DNA of 61,469 nucleotides, taken from positions 1 through 61,469 of the forward strand of contig JAMPAF010000009.1 of assembly GCA_023667345.1 (NCBI GenBank). The letters are read 5' to 3'. Each line of letters begins with the position of its first letter. Within the stretch, counting starts at the first letter, position 1. Made by a program: the position numbers and the translations under genes. Origin of the DNA: Clostridiales bacterium (GTDB taxonomy: Bacteria; Bacillota; Clostridia; Christensenellales; Borkfalkiaceae). The notes under the pieces are model-generated. The model saw only the letters and a list, made by a program, of their open reading frames with translations, was not told the origin of the DNA and made no database searches. Shown piece by piece: positions 206-8,489 of this stretch.

Positions 206-657
206 CTATATAAAATTGTAAACGCACTTTAAGCGTGCATAATAGTTATAAACACAATAAAAAGCAATTAAACAAATGTTTTCTATATTTTTTAAACTTT
301 TTTTCGTGTTACATAACGCAAGACAATTTTACGCCTTTGCACGCTAAAAATTATGACAGTATAAGCAGAATTTTAACAAGTGTTGCCGAAAATGGAAAAG
401 CCGCACACCCCCCCCGAAAAATAAAAAATCAACCTTACACTAAAAAGCATAAGGTTATGAATTACGCCGCCGCACGAAGAAGGGGGCGATTTGCAAGCGG
501 TTTAGCGGCGGACGCCCGTCCTTGCGGCGTCCAAATTATTTTTTTAGTCGATTTCTTTCATTTTAAGGTGTGAGCTTGTCCGCGCCGCGAAGCGGCGCGC
601 TTGTCAAGACAAGCTCACACCTAACTGCCAAATTAAATATTTTAGCAAAGATTTTGC
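206..657. other. Intergenic, no credible gene
   Basis: Open frames here have no ribosome binding site and no recognisable domain. The only clear structure is the nested inverted repeat at 566-622. The stretch separates the recombinase remnant from the promoter of the restriction operon. Confidence 0.5.
566..622. repeat. Nested perfect inverted repeat
   Basis: The outer arms AGGTGTGAGCTTGTC (566-580) and GACAAGCTCACACCT (608-622) are a perfect 15-bp inverted repeat. They enclose a second hairpin, CGCGCCGC-GAA-GCGGCGCG (581-599). It lies just upstream of the defence operon promoter and could act as a bidirectional terminator or be a small palindromic repeat element. There is no clear T-tract. 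Confidence 0.75.
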
Positions 658-686
658 TTGCTTTTATTCGGGTTTTAGAATATAAT
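658..686 (+). promoter_or_regulatory. SigA-type promoter of the defence operon
   Basis: A -35 box TTGCTT (658-663) and a perfect -10 box TATAAT (681-686) are separated by 17 bp. Transcription would start near 693, a short distance before the GAGG Shine-Dalgarno (701-704) and ATG at 711. It is the only good promoter seen upstream of the five tightly packed genes to 6120. Confidence 0.65.
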
Positions 687-710
687 GTCTTTATCAGTTT
701 GAGGTGCAAA

Positions 711-809
711 ATGTAAAGTTTTATTTCCGCAAAAGAAGCGGCAGACAAATGGAATATTTCTCAAAGGCGCGTTGCTATTCTCTGTTCCGAAAATCGCATT
801 GACGGAGCT
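711..809 (+). pseudogene. Severed HTH N-terminus of the Dam methyltransferase (stop codon at position 2)
   Basis: ATG 711-713 has a well-placed GAGG Shine-Dalgarno, but the next codon is TAA (714-716). The same frame then stays open and continues without a break into the Dam methyltransferase at 810. It encodes residues such as SAKEAADKWNISQRRV and AILCSENRIDGA, a MerR/excisionase-like helix-turn-helix. The ancestral protein was evidently an HTH-Dam fusion, and a nonsense mutation (or sequence error) now prevents translation of the HTH. Confidence 0.65.
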
Positions 810-1778
810 ATGATGGTCGGCAATATGTGGATAATACCGAGTACGGCGGAAAAGCCCATTGACAAGCGTACTGTAAGATATGAAAAGCAACATACTTTAC
901 AATTAAAGCCGTTCGTTAAATGGGTTGGCGGTAAAAGTCAACTTGTAGACGAGCTTGAAAAAATGTTGCCTGTGGACGGCGAAAGGGTTTTGACAAACTA
1001 TTGCGAACCTATGGTCGGTGGCGGAGCATTGCTCTTCAATATATTGTCTAAATTCGATTTTGAGCAAATTTATATCGGCGACACAAACACCGAGCTTATT
1101 AATGCATATAAAGTCATTCAAAATAACGTGGATAAACTTATAGTAAAGCTCACAGAAATGCAACTTTTGTTTTTGCCTATGAATGAAAACGGACGCAAAT
1201 ATTTTTACTACACGGCAAGAGAAAAGTTTAATAAACTTGAATTAAACGATAAAAACGCAACAGAAAAAGCGGCATTGTTTATTTTCTTAAACAAGACCTG
1301 TTTTAACGGCTTATACCGCGTAAATAAAAAGGGGCAATTTAACGTACCTATGGGCGCATACAAAAACCCTACTATTTGCGATGAAAATAATCTTCGTAAT
1401 ATTTCAAAAGCGTTGCAAAACGTGAAAATTGTTTGCGGCGATTATTCGTTATCAAAACAATTTATTGATAGTAATACTTTCGTTTATATCGATCCGCCTT
1501 ACAGACCTATTTCAGAAACTTCGGGCTTTACTTCTTACACTACCGATGTTTTTGACGATAACGAGCAAATAAGGCTTGCGAATTTTATAGACGAAATAAA
1601 CGAAACTGGGGCAAAAATAGTTTTAAGCAATTCAGATCCGCAAAATGTAAATGCGGACGATACGTTTTTCGAAGATTTGTATAAATCGTATAAAATCAAA
1701 AAAATCGAAGCAAGCCGTATGATTAACAGCAAATCAGAAGGGCGCGGAAAAATAAGAGAATTACTGATTTGTAATTGA
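810..1778 (+). CDS. dam: Dam-type DNA adenine-N6 methyltransferase (D12 class)
   Basis: Transfers a methyl group from S-adenosylmethionine to adenine in DNA, predicted target GATC because a DpnII-family nuclease lies two genes downstream. The Dam/DpnM domain starts at about residue 32 with FVKWVGGKSQL (motif X), then CEPMVGGGALLF (motif I, about 65-76), NKTCFNGLYR (161-170) and the catalytic DPPY (228-231). The start is uncertain. ATG 711 is followed at once by a stop, whereas ATG 813 has GGAG at 804-807 with 5-nt spacing, so internal initiation at 813 (or 810) would give an intact catalytic domain without its HTH. First gene of the defence operon. Expected to protect host DNA from the cognate nuclease. 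Confidence 0.88.
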   Translation: MMVGNMWIIPSTAEKPIDKRTVRYEKQHTLQLKPFVKWVGGKSQLVDELEKMLPVDGERVLTNYCEPMVGGGALLFNILSKFDFEQIYIGDTNTELINAYKVIQNNVDKLIVKLTEMQLLFLPMNENGRKYFYYTAREKFNKLELNDKNATEKAALFIFLNKTCFNGLYRVNKKGQFNVPMGAYKNPTICDENNLRNISKALQNVKIVCGDYSLSKQFIDSNTFVYIDPPYRPISETSGFTSYTTDVFDDNEQIRLANFIDEINETGAKIVLSNSDPQNVNADDTFFEDLYKSYKIKKIEASRMINSKSEGRGKIRELLICN

Positions 1779-1788
1779 GGGGTAAAAT

Positions 1789-2628
1789 ATGACTATACTT
1801 GAACTCACAAAAGAGGAAATAGATAAATACATAGACGAATTATATTCCTGCTTTCCGACCGGACGGGAATTTGAAATATTTCTTAACTCTTTTTTGACCG
1901 CTCTCGGTTTTGAAGAAGTTGTTACTACTCAATATGTCGGCGATAAAGGAATTGATTTAACCTGCATTAAAAGCGGACTTGACATAAACGGTACCGACAC
2001 GATGAATTACTACGTTCAAGCTAAAAGATACGCTCGCAGTAATAAGGTTCAGCCCAAAGAAGTCCGTGATTTAAAGGGTACAACAAAACGTGATAAAAAC
2101 GGCAATATTTTAAATAGCAATTACATCAACGTTTTTATAACCACGTCCACTTTTACGCCTGCGGCATTATCCGAAGCAACCGACAATCCGAATATGCCTG
2201 TTATTACTATTGACGGCGCACAGCTCATTCAATACTGCATTGAAAAAGGCATAGGCTTCAATTACAAGCCAGTGTTCTCTAAAAATGAAATTATTGCATT
2301 AACCCAAATTCAAAATTCTGTTAATGTTACTTCTACCGAAGATCGTAAATACCTTGTAGAAAGAGAAATAACCAAAAATGACATCAGAGCAAAAATACTG
2401 GTAATTCCGCAAGTTGTTAAAAGTGAACTTGCAGAAAATAAAGATAAATTTACAGTTGTGTTCAACGGCATCCAAAAGCAACTTAAAGTCGATAAGACAA
2501 GACGGTATTTTGGCGGTGTTACCGAGCTTTATAGGCAATTCGGCTTATTGACAAACGATGGTGCGTTTGTCTGCAAAAAGGCTAAATGGAACATTGACGG
2601 CGATAAAATTGTAATTGACTTAATATAA
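1789..2628 (+). CDS. Mrr-like restriction endonuclease
   Basis: A 279-residue protein with an N-terminal Mrr_cat-type PD-(D/E)XK nuclease core. The helix FEIFLNSFLTALGFEEV is followed by GDKGID (51-56) and QAKRY (77-81), which together match the GxE...DxGxD...QxK pattern of this fold. The C-terminal half (about 170-279) is not recognised and may read DNA sequence or modification state. It starts 10 bp after the Dam gene with a GAGGGG Shine-Dalgarno. Many Mrr relatives cut methylated DNA, but here it sits between a methyltransferase and a DpnII homologue, so it could be either an accessory nuclease or a second restriction enzyme. Specificity cannot be read from sequence. Confidence 0.75.
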   Translation: MTILELTKEEIDKYIDELYSCFPTGREFEIFLNSFLTALGFEEVVTTQYVGDKGIDLTCIKSGLDINGTDTMNYYVQAKRYARSNKVQPKEVRDLKGTTKRDKNGNILNSNYINVFITTSTFTPAALSEATDNPNMPVITIDGAQLIQYCIEKGIGFNYKPVFSKNEIIALTQIQNSVNVTSTEDRKYLVEREITKNDIRAKILVIPQVVKSELAENKDKFTVVFNGIQKQLKVDKTRRYFGGVTELYRQFGLLTNDGAFVCKKAKWNIDGDKIVIDLI

Positions 2629-2639
2629 AGGGTGTACTT

Positions 2640-3500
2640 ATGAAAAGAGATTTTAACGAATGGTTTAAAACGTTCAGAAACAGTATTTGCGATTATAGTT
2701 ATTATGTAAATTTTGAAAAGGTTTACGGAAATGTTGACAGCATAAAAGTTGAATTGAATATTCTCAACTCTTTAATCGGTTCAAAAAATATCGAAAGCGA
2801 TTTTGAAAAGTTAATTTCAGAATATCCGCAAGTTTTAAAGTGCATCCCCGTACTCTTGGCTGTACGTGGCAATGAAATATACGCTATTGACGGCGATGGC
2901 GAATATCTTTTCAACTTCAAGAAAATGAATTATTCCGTTACCGAATACAAAATGTTTATGCGCAAAACAGGTCTTTTTGATTTGATTTCAAACCGCATAA
3001 TCAATAATTTAGTAGATTATGTTACAGGCGTTGAAGTAGGACTTGACAGTAACGGTCGCAAAAACCGCGGCGGTCATCTTATGGAAAACCTTGTTGAAGA
3101 TTATCTTCAAAAGGCGGGGCTTGTCAAAGGTGTTGACTACTTCAAGGAAATGTACATATCAGATATTCAAAAGCGATGGAGCTTAGATTTATCTAATATT
3201 TCAAATACAGGCAAAACGGAAAAACGTTTTGATTTTGTAGTTAAAAAAGGTAATACCGTTTACGGCATTGAAACTAATTTCTATGCAAGCAGCGGTTCAA
3301 AATTAAACGAAACAGCAAGAAGCTATAAAACTATTACCTTGGAAGCGAAAGAAATACAGGGGTTTGCTTTCGTATGGTTTACCGACGGTATCGGTTGGCA
3401 ATCGGCAAAACATAACTTGGAAGAAACTTTCGACGTATTGGACAACCTTTACTGCATTACCGATTTGGAAAACGGTATTGTAAGCAAACTGTTTAAATAA
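2640..3500 (+). CDS. DpnII-family type II restriction endonuclease (predicted GATC)
   Basis: A 286-residue protein matching the DpnII family. The signature region EKLISEYPQVLKCIPVLLAV (about residues 57-76) corresponds to the conserved DpnII motif. Catalytic-type residues follow in the C-terminal half, where RFDFVVKKGNTVYGIETNFY provides the D...ExN arrangement. DpnII enzymes cleave unmethylated GATC, which fits the Dam-type methyltransferase at the head of the operon. The gene follows the Mrr-like gene by 11 bp, with AAAGGGTG as ribosome binding site. Confidence 0.88.
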   Translation: MKRDFNEWFKTFRNSICDYSYYVNFEKVYGNVDSIKVELNILNSLIGSKNIESDFEKLISEYPQVLKCIPVLLAVRGNEIYAIDGDGEYLFNFKKMNYSVTEYKMFMRKTGLFDLISNRIINNLVDYVTGVEVGLDSNGRKNRGGHLMENLVEDYLQKAGLVKGVDYFKEMYISDIQKRWSLDLSNISNTGKTEKRFDFVVKKGNTVYGIETNFYASSGSKLNETARSYKTITLEAKEIQGFAFVWFTDGIGWQSAKHNLEETFDVLDNLYCITDLENGIVSKLFK

Positions 3501-3501
3501 C

Positions 3502-4239
3502 ATGGCGAAAAATATTCCTTTACAGCCCGAAAATTTTGAGCTTGAAACTAATACCGTTTGGAGCTTTCCTGACAGGGGCAAATGGGCGACGCACGACGCT
3601 AAATATCGCGGTAATTGGTCGCCGTATATTCCGCGCAATATTATTTTGCGATATTCGGAATTCGGCGATACCGTTTTAGATCAGTTTGTAGGCGGTGGCA
3701 CTACCGCCGTTGAAGCTAAACTTACGCACAGAAATTTTATAGGCGTTGATATTAACTCTTTGGCAATAGAAATTACCAAAAACAAATGTAATTTCAATTT
3801 TGAAACGCAAGCAACTACTACTCTTATGCAAGGTGATGCAAGAAAATTAGACCTTGTAAACAAAAGCGTTGATTTAATCTGCACCCATCCGCCGTATGCC
3901 GATATAATTCATTACAGCGAAAATATTGACGGCGATTTATCGTTACTCTCAATTAAGCCGTTTTTAGCCGAAATGGGCAAGGTGGCAGAAGAAAGTTACA
4001 GAGTTTTGAAAAAAGATAAATTTTGCGCTATTCTTATGGGTGATACGCGCAAAAAAGGAATGGTTCAACCGCTCGCATTCGAAACAATGCGGATATTCGA
4101 GCTTGCAGGCTTTAAATTAAAAGAAATCATCATTAAAGAACAACACAATTGCAAAGCAACAGGCTTTTGGAAAACTAACAGTATTAAGCACAACTTTTTA
4201 CTGTTAGCCCATGAGTATATGTTTGTGTTTAAGAAGTAA
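3502..4239 (+). CDS. Site-specific DNA methyltransferase (N4/N6 family)
   Basis: A 245-residue SAM-dependent DNA methylase. The SAM-binding motif DQFVGGGTT (60-68) precedes the catalytic motif THPPY (128-132), so the order is motif I before motif IV. The HPPY form replaces the usual DPPY or SPPY, so adenine versus cytosine-N4 specificity is open. It starts one base after the stop of the DpnII gene with no good Shine-Dalgarno of its own, suggesting translational coupling. DpnII systems classically have a second methylase (DpnA), but the motif order here does not obviously match DpnA. It may instead protect the site cut by the Mrr-like nuclease. Confidence 0.82.
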   Translation: MAKNIPLQPENFELETNTVWSFPDRGKWATHDAKYRGNWSPYIPRNIILRYSEFGDTVLDQFVGGGTTAVEAKLTHRNFIGVDINSLAIEITKNKCNFNFETQATTTLMQGDARKLDLVNKSVDLICTHPPYADIIHYSENIDGDLSLLSIKPFLAEMGKVAEESYRVLKKDKFCAILMGDTRKKGMVQPLAFETMRIFELAGFKLKEIIIKEQHNCKATGFWKTNSIKHNFLLLAHEYMFVFKK

Positions 4240-4251
4240 TGAAAGGTACAG

Positions 4252-6120
4252 ATGATGTTTTGTATTAAATATAAAACATGGAAAGAAATTTGCGAGATGT
4301 ATTTCTCCTTGAAAACGAATACGAAAAAATCATATTTGCAATGGTTTCCATTTACAAAATTATCGCATACTGAAAAAGAAGTAATAAGTAGTGAGGATTT
4401 TTATAATAATTACATAAAAACATTTTCCTTTATTCTATTCCCAAATAATTTATATCAATCAAATAATTTTATCCAAAAAAGTGATGGGAGTTTTAGAAAT
4501 GCATCTCTGGTATCCCCTATTTTGTATTTAGCACTTCAAGCAATGGGAAAGGAAATTTTCGATATATATAATCATACAAGAAGTAGCAATGTTTCTGTAT
4601 ATTATGCGGGTAGTTATGAATTCCTACGTCCGAATTATAAGCAGGAATATGATAGTTTTTTCAAAAAAATAAATTCAAATATTGATTCTTTTCAGTACTT
4701 TATTAAAACCGATATAACTAATTTTTACTCTTCAATCAATATTAATAAGCTAATTGCTCGAATTGATGAAATATGTAATAACTCTAAGATGAAAATTTCT
4801 CAATCCGAGTTGCTTATTTTTAAAGAACTGTTGTTATTTTGTGGAAATGGAAAATTCCCTTTGATTGAGAATAGTGTAGCTTCATCATTCTTATCAACAG
4901 TTGTTTATCTTGATGATATAGATTCCAAATTATATCTTATTTTAAAAGATAAGTTTCCAGAGATAACGGATTTTAAAATTATTCGTTATGTTGATGATAT
5001 GTATATACTGCTATCCAGCGAAACATCAATAAAATTCTTACATGAAATATATAATGAAATAAGAAATATTTATTCATCGCTATTAAAAGAATATGATTTA
5101 TCGTTAAATGCAAAAAAATGTTGTCTAAAAGGAGCAACTGAAATCAATGCTGAATTAAAGAAATCGCTTTATGACGAATTCTTTAATGGTGAAAAACATA
5201 ACATTGAAGATTTGTTTCCAAATTCTCTACTTGAATTTATTAGAGATTTGTCGAATGAGTTATCATATGATAGTATTGATGTTGATAGCTATAATGAATT
5301 AATTAATAAACATTTTACGTCAACTGATATTGAGTTTACGCCTAATGAAATTTTGAATTATTTTGTATATGAAAATCCTGAAAAGCTCTCCGAACCACAC
5401 ATTGTGAAAGAGCTAATTAATATTGTAGAAAAGAGCATATCATTTATAAGTTTAGATCCTAAAAGATTAACCTTAATGATTATAAAAACTAAAAATGATA
5501 GAGCAATTAAAGCTTTCTTGAACCAATTATTTAAAAGATCAAGAGCAGGGAAATGGAATTCTTATGATACTACAATAGCAATTACATACCTAATCCAAAA
5601 TAAATTTAGACACTTGGATTTATTAAAGATTATAAAATCACAGAGTCCACTTTTATTTGATTTTTATGAGTTATATTGTAAAGGAAGTTTTTTAAATGAA
5701 TTTAATGATACTAACTTAAATAAGTTAAGAAATGTCATTAGTAATGACTTAAAAGCGCATTACTTATATTTTATGTTTGTCGGAGAATATAAAAAACGAA
5801 ATATTATGTCTGCATTCGCATTTTTCAAAAACTATTTTGATCGTGTTACTGCGGATATAGATTTTGTTGCATCAAAAGATTTGAAATTAAAACGTCCTAA
5901 TTATAAAAGATTTTACAAAGAGCAAAGCTTTAAAGATTGTTATCAAGGATTCCCCAATTCTGATAGCATCATTGAAAAGGCGCATGAATTAAGAAACGCA
6001 AACCCGCTATCTCATTCCTCATCGGAATTATTAGACAATAATAATTCATCGAATGAATTAGAGAAGAGTATTGAGAATTTATCCAATTTGATTTCGTGGC
6101 GTATTTCAAAAGTTTCCTAA
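4252..6120 (+). CDS. abiA: AbiA-like abortive infection reverse transcriptase with C-terminal HEPN motif
   Basis: A 622-residue protein, close to the length of lactococcal AbiA. The RT palm is clear: motif A is FIKTDITNFYSSI (catalytic D154) and motif C is RYVDDMYIL (YVDD 246-249). A long alpha-helical region (about 300-540) follows, as in the Abi group of reverse transcriptases. Near the C-terminus, ELRNANPLSHSSSEL carries R581-N-x5-H588, the Rx4-6H signature of HEPN ribonucleases, which AbiA proteins carry at this place. Family knowledge: these enzymes make untemplated or protein-primed DNA and abort phage infection. It begins 12 bp after the methyltransferase, with GAAAGG upstream of tandem ATGs, so it is probably co-transcribed. 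Strongly AT-rich codon use compared with the flanking core genome indicates horizontal transfer. Confidence 0.87.
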   Translation: MMFCIKYKTWKEICEMYFSLKTNTKKSYLQWFPFTKLSHTEKEVISSEDFYNNYIKTFSFILFPNNLYQSNNFIQKSDGSFRNASLVSPILYLALQAMGKEIFDIYNHTRSSNVSVYYAGSYEFLRPNYKQEYDSFFKKINSNIDSFQYFIKTDITNFYSSININKLIARIDEICNNSKMKISQSELLIFKELLLFCGNGKFPLIENSVASSFLSTVVYLDDIDSKLYLILKDKFPEITDFKIIRYVDDMYILLSSETSIKFLHEIYNEIRNIYSSLLKEYDLSLNAKKCCLKGATEINAELKKSLYDEFFNGEKHNIEDLFPNSLLEFIRDLSNELSYDSIDVDSYNELINKHFTSTDIEFTPNEILNYFVYENPEKLSEPHIVKELINIVEKSISFISLDPKRLTLMIIKTKNDRAIKAFLNQLFKRSRAGKWNSYDTTIAITYLIQNKFRHLDLLKIIKSQSPLLFDFYELYCKGSFLNEFNDTNLNKLRNVISNDLKAHYLYFMFVGEYKKRNIMSAFAFFKNYFDRVTADIDFVASKDLKLKRPNYKRFYKEQSFKDCYQGFPNSDSIIEKAHELRNANPLSHSSSELLDNNNSSNELEKSIENLSNLISWRISKVS

Positions 6121-6166: not shown

Positions 6167-6631
6167 TTAACAAAACAACTTATTCGAATAAGACTGAATA
6201 CGGGTCACCACGTTGGAGCTATCCGAACCATTAGGATAGCTCCTTTCGTTTTTTGCGGTAAAATCTTTGTATTGTACCGCTATCATACGCTCGGTGCAAT
6301 CCGCCGTATCGTTACACTCACTATTTTGATAGTGGGTGTTTTTCTTATCTACGTAATTGAGCTTTAATTCCATTTTATTATGATAAAGTTTAATTTTCTG
6401 TATGAGTAAATCAACCATAAGTTTGGGCGACTTTCTGATTGTATGCGTTAAGTATTCCACAACTTGCGACCTTGTAAGCTGGTGTTCACAGGTGTACTGT
6501 TCGTTTAGTATCTTGTCGTCGATTATGGCAAGCCGTTCTTCGAGTTCGGTCATACGGTTTTTCGTCGTAGCCGTTAAAATTCCTTGTTCGATAGCTTACT
6601 GTTCTAAATTTGATAAAATCTTTATGAGCGA
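6167..6631 (-). pseudogene. Serine recombinase C-terminal remnant with in-frame stop
   Basis: On the minus strand, IKILSNLEQ is followed by TAA at 6598-6596, then the same frame continues AIEQGILTATTKNRMTELEE and DLLIQKIKLYHNKMELKLNY. This matches the C-terminal coiled coil and end of large serine recombinases, where the AIEQG helix is typical. A second in-frame stop (6634-6632) ends the similarity upstream, and the catalytic domain is gone. With the fragment at 1-205 it brackets the defence operon, suggesting repeated insertion of integrative elements at this locus. Confidence 0.65.
6215..6254 (+). terminator. Rho-independent terminator downstream of abiA
   Basis: GGAGCTATCC (6215-6224) and GGATAGCTCC (6234-6243) form a perfect 10-bp stem with a 9-nt loop. 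They are followed by TTTCGTTTTTT on the + strand. It is the first terminator after abiA and probably ends the defence transcript. Confidence 0.65.
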
Positions 6632-7046
6632 TTATATCTTTTTCATAAAAATTAACGAAAGCATAGGACGTTATGTAAATTCCTGCTTGTAATTCTCGGC
6701 GGTAGTCAACGGCGGCTGTACACGTCGTAATTCTTTCTATGCTCTTACGCCGTGCGCCAAAAAAATTATGTGCGTATATGAAAAAAACCGGACTGTTTTT
6801 TTACAGTCCAGCTTTAATTTTATTAAGTTATAAAACAGTCCGCTCTCGGCAATCCTAAATAATTTTTTTGCCCGTTGACTTCCGCAAAGTCCTATGCTAG
6901 ATATGCCCAGAGAAAAGCAAAAAATTCGGAGTTACCTTCAAAACAGTTGCGAAAAGTAGTGTTATGTGGTACAATAAAGACGGTTATAATTTTGATGGGG
7001 TTTTTGGTGTTCTGTTGGGGTTTCTCTCGTTTCACCACTAAGGAAC
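6632..7046 (+). other. Intergenic stretch with two promoter-like signals
   Basis: No convincing gene is seen. A promoter-like TTGACT (6875-6880), 17 bp, TAGATA (6898-6903) with an extended -10 TGC, and a second TTGCGA (6947-6952), 17 bp, TACAAT (6970-6975), both point right toward the terminator at 7047-7092. Any open frame between them lacks a Shine-Dalgarno, so a small non-coding transcript or relics of the recombinase promoter are both possible. Confidence 0.4.
6780..6809 (-). terminator. Hairpin terminator (minus strand)
   Basis: GGACTGT (6790-6796) and ACAGTCC (6803-6809) form a 7-bp stem. On the minus strand it is followed by CGG and a run of T (complement of the A-run at 6780-6786). 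Confidence 0.5.
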
Positions 7047-7092
7047 AACGCCGAACCTTTTTTTGAAAGGTTCGGCGTTGCTTTTTTATTTT
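7047..7092 (+). terminator. Strong terminator between the island and aspS
   Basis: AACGCCGAACCTTT (7047-7060) pairs perfectly with AAAGGTTCGGCGTT (7066-7079). CTTTTTTATTTTTT follows on the + strand. The hairpin may also slow transcription arriving from aspS on the other strand. Confidence 0.75.
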
Positions 7093-7157
7093 TTACAACT
7101 TTTATATAAAACGCAATTTTTCTACGCCATAGCCGCTATACACGACAAGCAAATTTT

Positions 7158-8489
7158 TTACGGGGTGACGCGGTTGATATCGCGGGGGAACATTGCCGCG
7201 TAGCGCACGTTTTTAAAGCCCAAAAGGTGCATCGTGAGCCGCTCTAAGCCCAGCCCCAAACCGCCGTGAGGGGGCGCGCCGTATTTATGAAGCATCAAAT
7301 ACGTCTCGAACTCTTCGGGGTTCATGCCCAGTCTCTTCATCTTTTCGACCTGCTCGTTATAGTCGTGCACGCGCTGACCGCCGCTGGTTATCTCGATGCC
7401 GCGGAACAGAAGGTCGAACGACAGTGTGACCTCGGGGTCCTCCGGGTCGTCCATAGTGTAGAAGGGACGCTTCTTCGACAGATAGTGCGTGACGAAAAGA
7501 AAATCGGAATTGTACTGCTGCTTTGCCCACTTGCCGAGGAACGCCTCTTCCTCGGGCTCGAAGTCCTTCATGTCCGTAATGTTTTTCAGCTTTTTAACGC
7601 ACATCTCTTTTGCGTCCTTAAAGCGTATGCAGGGTATTGATTTGATTTCGGGCACCTCTACCTTCAAAAGCTCTATCTCGGGCGCGTACTCCGCTTTTAA
7701 AAGCTCCATAATGTATTTTAAAACGCCCGTTTCCATATTCATTATGTCGGTGAAGCTGTCGATAAAGCCCATCTCGAAGTCCATCGAGATGTACTCGTTT
7801 AAGTGGCGGGACGTATCGTGGTGCTCGGCGCGGAACACGGGCGCGATTTCGAACACCCTTTCGTACACGGGCACGAGCGCCTGCTTATAGAGCTGAGGGC
7901 TCTGCGCCAAAAATACCTGCTTGCCGAAATAGTCGAGCTTAAAAACGTTGGTGCCGCCCTCCGCGCCCGCAAAGTTGATTTTGGGCGAGTGGATTTCGGT
8001 GAAGCCCTGCTTTGTTAAATACTCGCGGAAGCCGCGCTGAATTCCTTCCTGAATTTTGAATACCGCGCGCTCCTTCGGGTTGCGCAGCGTTACGGGGCGA
8101 TAGTCTAAATTTACGCTTAAATCGGCGTTGACCTGCTTTTTGTTTATGACGACGGGCGGAATTGCCGCGGGCGCGGACAGAATTTCTACGCCGCGAATTT
8201 GCAATTCAAACCTTTCGCTGCCGTCGCGCGTTTCGCTCTTTACAACCTTGCCCCATAGCTTGACCGAGCACTGCTCGACGAGTTTGCCGTCCATTCTGTA
8301 ATCGGAAAAATCGGGGCAATACACGCACTGGATAAGCTCCCTTGCCGTGCGGATAATTACGAACGCAAAGTCGGACATATCCCTTATGCTGTGCACCGCG
8401 CCCTTTATTGTGACTACTTCGCCCACGTGGTTTTTAAACTCACTATAAGGCGTAACCGAGTTTTTTATAACACCCGTCATATCTTCCAT
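7158..8489 (-). CDS. aspS: Aspartyl-tRNA synthetase, archaeal/eukaryotic type
   Basis: Charges tRNA with aspartate. At 443 residues it is the short archaeal-type enzyme rather than the bacterial AspRS of about 590 residues. It has an N-terminal OB fold (about 15-110) that binds the anticodon. The class II core follows, with motif 2 (FEIAPVFRAEHHDTSRHLNE) and motif 3 (GGLGLGLERLTMHLLG). The bacterial GAD insertion is absent. Enzymes of this type are often non-discriminating and also make Asp-tRNA(Asn) for the amidotransferase route, but this cannot be decided from sequence alone. A GAGG Shine-Dalgarno precedes the ATG at 8489. A second in-frame ATG lies three codons downstream. Confidence 0.93.
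   Translation of the reverse strand: MEDMTGVIKNSVTPYSEFKNHVGEVVTIKGAVHSIRDMSDFAFVIIRTARELIQCVYCPDFSDYRMDGKLVEQCSVKLWGKVVKSETRDGSERFELQIRGVEILSAPAAIPPVVINKKQVNADLSVNLDYRPVTLRNPKERAVFKIQEGIQRGFREYLTKQGFTEIHSPKINFAGAEGGTNVFKLDYFGKQVFLAQSPQLYKQALVPVYERVFEIAPVFRAEHHDTSRHLNEYISMDFEMGFIDSFTDIMNMETGVLKYIMELLKAEYAPEIELLKVEVPEIKSIPCIRFKDAKEMCVKKLKNITDMKDFEPEEEAFLGKWAKQQYNSDFLFVTHYLSKKRPFYTMDDPEDPEVTLSFDLLFRGIEITSGGQRVHDYNEQVEKMKRLGMNPEEFETYLMLHKYGAPPHGGLGLGLERLTMHLLGFKNVRYAAMFPRDINRVTP

Follow-up and report, generated by a model that had tools for sequence, protein, structure and literature searches.

The gene at 4252..6120 of the window (the whole stretch of 61,469 nucleotides analysed, from a Clostridiales bacterium) encodes a genuine AbiA, and the best explanation of its position is that recombination attached it to the tail of a mobile DpnII-type restriction-modification (R-M) operon, as an exchangeable second-layer defence (probability roughly 0.7). 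This reading starts from the identity of the protein, the order of the genes, a break in base composition and promiscuous pairing on both sides, all of which are observed directly. AbiA is best read as an exchangeable effector acting by protein-primed DNA synthesis, and not as a suicide switch wired to restriction. The AbiA family is known already, as is its link with R-M operons; modularity is what is added here. An earlier note on this DNA had recognised the AbiA identity, the domain layout and the DpnII-type neighbour, all of which stood; its ribonuclease or suicide function, the supposed rarity of the arrangement and a trigger upon restriction failure did not. The features of the operon are as follows.

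681..686, forward strand: TATAAT box, likely the -10 element of the operon promoter.
810..1778, forward strand: Dam-family (DpnM-like) adenine methyltransferase (PF02086, 224 bits; TIGR00571, 306 bits).
1789..2628, forward strand: protein of the restriction-endonuclease fold (Mrr_cat), occupying a variable internal slot (PF04471, 75 bits).
2640..3500, forward strand: DpnII-family restriction endonuclease, GATC expected (PF04556, 366 bits).
3502..4239, forward strand: N6/N4 methyltransferase, the last conserved cassette gene, which we take to be DpnA-like (PF01555, 87 bits; PADLOC MTase_II, 385 bits).
4252..6120, forward strand: AbiA, with RT-like polymerase, helical domain and HEPN C-terminal domain (TIGR04499, PF18732, 8oz7).
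4711..4713, forward strand: RT motif A Asp154, invariant in 12/12 aligned AbiA.
4987..4998, forward strand: RT motif C YVDD 246-249, invariant in 12/12 aligned AbiA.
5170..5172, forward strand: Tyr307, counterpart of the L. lactis priming Tyr298 (Tyr in 9/12 aligned AbiA).
5992..6015, forward strand: HEPN motif RNANPLSH 581-588, with R581 and H588 invariant in 12/12 aligned AbiA.

The open reading frame 4252-6120 encodes 622 amino acids and carries D154 within KTDI, YVDD at 246-249 and RNANPLSH at 581-588, the motif positions being those given in the earlier note. The curated AbiA model TIGR04499 is matched over its full length (positions 1-615 of 615) with 703 bits against a cut-off of 250, and PADLOC gives AbiA 760 bits. 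In the RT domain (RVT_1, E = 2.1e-7) both the motif A Asp and YxDD are found, and PF18732 (HEPN_AbiA_CTD) covers residues 491-620 with 173 bits (E = 2.9e-51). The sequence RNANPLSH agrees with the HEPN toxin motif R-x4-6-H; it had been written as RN-x5-H and is R-x6-H in standard notation. A search of the PDB with the window protein returned AbiA 8oz7 as its sole match (E = 1.4e-75, residues 2-612). These family and structure matches bear out the layout of RT, helical and HEPN domains, and the whole-length AbiA match rules out a group II intron or retron RT. A single copy of abiA is present in the host assembly, which is 83% complete. An alignment was built from 12 uninterrupted AbiA proteins, 14-92% identical to one another in pairs; the other 11 are 17-60% identical to that of the window. 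It contains 20 invariant columns, including D154, RYVDD 245-249, R581 and H588. The column of Tyr307 holds Tyr in nine of the 12 proteins and another residue in L047, L056 and L057.

The AbiA of L. lactis (PDB 8oz7) aligns with that of the window over nearly its full length at 30% identity. Both share the domain order, YVDD, the priming Tyr and a HEPN motif at residues 581-588, whereas the second priming residue of L. lactis, Tyr303, has no Tyr at the corresponding place in the window protein. According to the accessible sections of PMC11077055, L. lactis AbiA is a dimer held together via HEPN, it carries out protein-primed DNA synthesis with Tyr298 as the priming residue, and its phage defence depends on the polymerase. 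In the same sections RNase activity was not detected, defence was undiminished with R581A and H588A, and abortive death was not evident in infection assays, for which the authors concede low infectivity as a possible cause. The protein also protects E. coli, where, as we read these sections, R-M neighbours were apparently absent. By homology, the AbiA of the window would be a HEPN-linked dimer in which a Tyr, most likely Tyr307, primes untemplated single-strand DNA synthesis. This polymerase activity would be what blocks the phage and confers resistance, and the HEPN domain would chiefly keep the dimer together.

The L. lactis results, as far as those sections go, do not support the HEPN ribonuclease and suicide module that the earlier note had assigned to this gene. 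A modified form of the idea is that R-x6-H is catalytic only with an R-M partner or a phage trigger and then leads to growth arrest. It would account for the invariance of R581 and H588 in all 12 divergent proteins, some of them with no R-M gene seen adjacent, but it is very unlikely: L. lactis AbiA lacked RNase activity and kept its defence with R581A and H588A (PMC11077055, same sections), and the motif is kept also by AbiA without R-M neighbours, so its conservation does not hinge on an R-M partner. A purely structural role of HEPN is in turn hard to square with the data, since only 20 columns are invariant in these proteins of 14-92% identity, and R581 and H588 belong to them. There is thus a contradiction between two residues that are invariant across divergent AbiA and their dispensability in the sole tested system, apparently one without R-M neighbours. 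Kept also where no R-M is seen adjacent, these residues are explained neither by independent layers nor by a dedicated trigger, and they are the most useful loose end of this analysis.

The four genes on the 5' side of abiA are R-M genes, as had been proposed, in the order dam, Mrr-type nuclease, DpnII, methyltransferase; abiA follows as the fifth gene, all on the forward strand, and its placement behind a DpnII-type system is confirmed. The DpnII-type trio (PF04556, PF02086 and PF01555) lies above the cut-offs in the window, and the same order is found in relatives. Between the methyltransferase stop at 4239 and the abiA start the gap is 12 bp, a spacing from which co-transcription of abiA with the four R-M genes seems probable. 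AbiA would then be translated from the operon mRNA, as a second and exchangeable layer of defence. GATC restriction by DpnII and AbiA would be co-inherited, probably co-expressed, and presumably active as two independent layers. The TATAAT box was absent as a full promoter from a consensus promoter scan, which returned 28 sites against 28.2 expected. A TTAGAATATAAT-like stretch (LEYN or FEYN in translation) is conserved at the same place in 5/5 cassette relatives examined. In these five relatives the Dam frame begins about 100 bp earlier, with a piece that looks HTH-like by eye. In the window (711-810) a stop immediately follows the expected start of this frame, which leaves 810 as the start of Dam unless there is a sequence error. 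On both sides of the operon, at 1-230 and at 6167-6553 (reverse strand), there are remnants that by eye resemble the C-terminal ends of large serine recombinases, and they suggest that the operon was inserted into or by such elements. The remnant at 6167-6553 had no convincing Pfam match, and a repeat scan found no repeats bracketing abiA.

The dependence of AbiA on R-M systems was examined in 14 loci (the window, L002, L003, L004, L005, L038, L039, L047, L048, L049, L056, L057, L058 and L060). In six of them, same-strand R-M genes are found no more than 1.4 kb upstream, each time of another kind: DpnII type in the window, a methyltransferase and Type IIG in L002, Type I HsdM-S-R in L004, Type III Mod-Res in L005, a C5 methyltransferase in L047 and, by annotation, LlaJI in L039. 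The last of these is the L. lactis plasmid pUCCL629C, whose AbiA aligns to the 8oz7 chain along its entire length; it is R-M-linked as in the window, but its partner is of the LlaJI type, with a 413-aa protein between, instead of DpnII. BREX genes are near AbiA in two loci (L038 and L048), and neither R-M nor BREX was seen in six (L003, L049, L056, L057, L058 and L060). In all, no R-M gene was found within 1.4 kb upstream in eight of the 14, among which L003 and L060 meet the contig end sooner; the first upstream ORFs of these two were left out of the family searches. The abiA genes of L038 and L058 are interrupted, the former by transposase genes (IS110 type, UPF0236) and the latter by a DDE transposase, its C-terminal piece being recognised by eye.

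The sample of loci is not random, as it was drawn from a protein-guided scan (five loci, one dropped), a plasmid search and genome searches. In the genome searches AbiA stood above the cut-off in 2/398, 3/298, 2/391 and 2/249, and protein queries matched in 2/101, 5/130, 1/63 and 1/20; several rows repeat known places. L006 (25% over 167 residues), G402 (residues 216-292 only), G1496 (coordinates identical to G120) and RT matches below the cut-off were dropped from the tally. In the plasmid search one AbiA was complete; five further RT matches were partial, ended before the HEPN part and were dropped as well. No AbiA was confirmed in viral contigs, and phages gave no match. The control consisted of 15 Abi_2 loci (16 places, two of which are one locus) in 118 genomes, scanned with Pfam only; an R-M gene (EcoEI_R_C) was upstream in at least one of the 15, judged from the best 25 of 27 families. 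Against this control the six of 14 for AbiA hint at more than chance (Fisher p = 0.035, for a small, non-random sample and a control by Pfam alone). The association of AbiA with R-M is likely to be real but loose.

The shared operon had been called unusual, but publications have placed AbiA in R-M operons since 2013. In the accessible part of PMC3710099, Table 1 enters AbiA-CTD as 'in operon with R-M system', AbiU2 is also listed with R-M operons, and a PrrC-like two-layer scheme is proposed for HEPN-RM pairs on the analogy of PrrC-PrrI. The part of PMC8934634 consulted again connects AbiA with R-M, and accessory genes coupled to R-M are treated in general terms in that of PMC12707154. PrrC/EcoPrrI and the HEPN genes of R-M operons (PMC3710099, same part) resemble the window in having a HEPN-bearing defence gene inside an R-M operon. 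PrrC is an ABC-ATPase anticodon nuclease bound to one Type IC system, whereas AbiA is a polymerase with varied R-M neighbours and a HEPN domain reported inactive.

By the same analogy, R-M proteins or successful restriction could hold AbiA inactive, and a phage that blocks restriction would free it as a fallback. The repeated position of AbiA behind R-M genes (6/14 loci), the invariant HEPN motif and the scheme of 2013 are in keeping with such a guard, but it is quite improbable. There is no fixed partner protein, since AbiA is paired with Type I, Type II (DpnII), Type IIG, Type III, a C5 methyltransferase or LlaJI; these are six R-M contexts where a PrrC-like arrangement would show a fixed association with one R-M type. 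The protection of E. coli by L. lactis AbiA, apparently without R-M neighbours (PMC11077055, sections above), also stands against it. Evidence on this point comes also from Peptoniphilus, in which the AbiA proteins of L004 (P. gorbachii) and L005 (P. duerdenii) are 92% identical, with Type I genes in front of abiA in the former and Type III genes in the latter. The two loci share a stretch of 2081 bp with 91% DNA identity, which begins 65 bp ahead of the abiA start and ends 139 bp past its stop. The sole further match between the two 17.8-kb stretches is one of 98 bp at 74% (L004 1402-1498, L005 2840-2936), which ends about 40-55 bp ahead of the first R-M gene in each. This stretch is perhaps a common leader, in which case the R-M genes between leader and abiA would have been swapped. 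Near-identical AbiA behind unrelated R-M types, together with the eight loci that have no R-M gene seen within 1.4 kb upstream, leaves the dedicated trigger upon restriction failure that had been suggested without support. The earlier note had itself held that such a gene found without R-M and transcribed from a promoter of its own would speak against its proposal; as regards R-M association, such genes do occur.

The R-M operon shows a similar freedom on its side. DpnII was matched at E <= 1e-20 in 16 of the 220 relatives searched, the own genome included, which leaves 15 others. The five-gene order, proposed as a possible composite defence system, was not found again in the sequence searched, and tblastn detected no AbiA around the 15 other matches (among which L146 ends inside the methyltransferase, L152 is rearranged or partial and L148 is without dam). 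A fixed five-gene system with abiA is ruled out by this lack of AbiA near the other DpnII matches among the 220 relatives. Thirteen cassettes are readable past the last methyltransferase: the window, L138-L142, L144, L145 and L147-L151. Among them, L147 is degenerate, the dam gene of L148 lies outside the view and L150 has an extra gene inside; the DpnII genes of L149, L150 and L151 are 31-58% identical to that of the window. L143 and L153, which are one locus without the last methyltransferase, and the cut cassettes L146 and L152 fall outside the 13.

A same-strand gene begins within 80 bp past the methyltransferase stop in eight of the 13 cassettes, the distance being counted manually up to the first possible start. 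It encodes AbiA in the window (12 bp), an OLD/GajA-like protein with TOPRIM in L138 (16 bp), SIR2-pAgo in L142 (68 bp), HEPN AbiU2 in L144 (49 bp), a second methyltransferase in L140 (80 bp), an AAA_15 fragment in L150 (36 bp) and proteins of no clear family in L141 (68 bp) and L139 (70 bp). AbiA occurs as a tail in the window only, and no same-strand tail was seen in the remaining five of the 13. The closest parallels are L138, L142 and L144, in which dam, DpnII and the N6/N4 methyltransferase stand in the window's order with an OLD/GajA-like, SIR2-pAgo or AbiU2 tail 16-68 bp behind in place of AbiA, and in which the Mrr slot has either a small ORF or no gene where the window has Mrr_cat. This slot, between dam and DpnII, is filled alike in L145 (78% identical) and is empty or otherwise filled in other relatives. 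L145 has the same four genes without abiA, its DNA being 74% identical from 653 to 4239. Nucleotide homology of the window with eight cassette relatives stops at 4235-4246, at most 7 bp from the methyltransferase stop.

It might be argued that this is a plain defence island, with abiA beside R-M by chance in a hot spot and with neither its tail position nor its co-transcription selected. AbiA is near BREX in two of its 14 loci and near neither BREX nor R-M in six, it stands behind a DpnII cassette in the window only, five of 13 cassettes have no same-strand tail, a recognised abortive-infection gene lies behind one of the nine plasmid DpnII records viewed (L156), and the helicase ahead of the L142 cassette may be defensive too. 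This alternative is nevertheless unlikely, though it deserves to be taken seriously, in view of the tight same-strand spacing (12 bp in the window), the several unrelated defence genes at one tail position of one cassette type and the Abi_2 control. Genes ahead of three cassettes (by PDB search a helicase, a dipeptidase and no match, for L138 not the nearest gene) are too few to serve as a control.

Base composition changes at the same junction. The GC content is 0.265 in abiA against 0.35-0.39 in the R-M genes, 0.364 in the cassette and about 0.49 in the host, and the tail gene is lower in GC than its cassette in 8/8 cassettes with a same-strand tail (sign test about 0.008). The low GC of tail genes could reflect the AT-richness of defence genes generally instead of a separate arrival. 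GATC is nearly absent from the host, with 3 sites against 638 expected in 20 sampled stretches (368,850 bases, contigs L080-L099), and from the window outside the operon (7158-61469), with 0 against 95 expected. The operon holds seven sites, three of them in abiA. The near-absence in the host together with these seven sites suggests that the entire operon with its abiA was imported recently, into a genome where GATC sites had long been under pressure. The GATC specificity of the window DpnII is predicted from its family, and the scarcity of GATC in the host is consistent with it. Also depleted in the host are GGCC (28 of 1478 expected), CTAG (14 of 298) and CCGG (287 of 1834). In stretches of the same genus GATC is low in some (L113, 0 of 33 expected; L108, 1 of 30) and not in others. 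Stretches below 5 kb (L114 and L115) were left out of the GATC counts.

Promiscuous pairing of AbiA and R-M counts against a specific protein contact. If near-identical AbiA serve unrelated R-M systems, and if closely related DpnII cassettes differ in the kind of effector they bear, a PrrC-like contact is unlikely, and the pairing may mean common expression, a general signal or protection that simply adds up. The relatives suggest that DpnII operons exchange their last-gene defences. More broadly and more tentatively, with odds rather short of even, the DpnII cassette could be a standard platform that offers one socket at its tail and another inside, between dam and DpnII. AbiA, OLD/Gabija-like, SIR2-Argonaute and AbiU2 genes would be swapped at the exact gene end, one promoter would drive restriction and a second-layer effector, and AbiA itself would rotate among Type I, II, IIG, III and LlaJI platforms. 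Interchangeable tail genes on DpnII cassettes were not described among the matches listed in the open literature.

Cassettes on plasmids and viruses behave otherwise. Nineteen plasmid records matched DpnII and nine were viewed. An AIPR abortive-infection-type gene lies 102 bp past the cassette on an S. cohnii plasmid (L156), a SWIM zinc-finger protein is behind that of L154, and a recombinase or integrase, a replication gene, an ArdC-like gene or rfbC comes next on the other seven (L155, L157-L162). DpnII relatives occur on two viral contigs as well; L136 is without a same-strand tail and L137 continues with a UvrD-like helicase. As these cassettes are mostly without a defence tail, the tail pattern belongs to the window's relatives and not to DpnII systems generally. 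In L154 (Fusobacterium) a Mrr_cat gene (6868-7683) is situated between DpnII and the last methyltransferase, not in the slot that separates dam from DpnII. The internal cassette slot of L139 (6458-7339) encodes the candidate defence protein PDC-S14. The 346-aa tail gene of L141 (3921-4958), with no family above the cut-off and no PDB match, is a candidate for a new defence gene.
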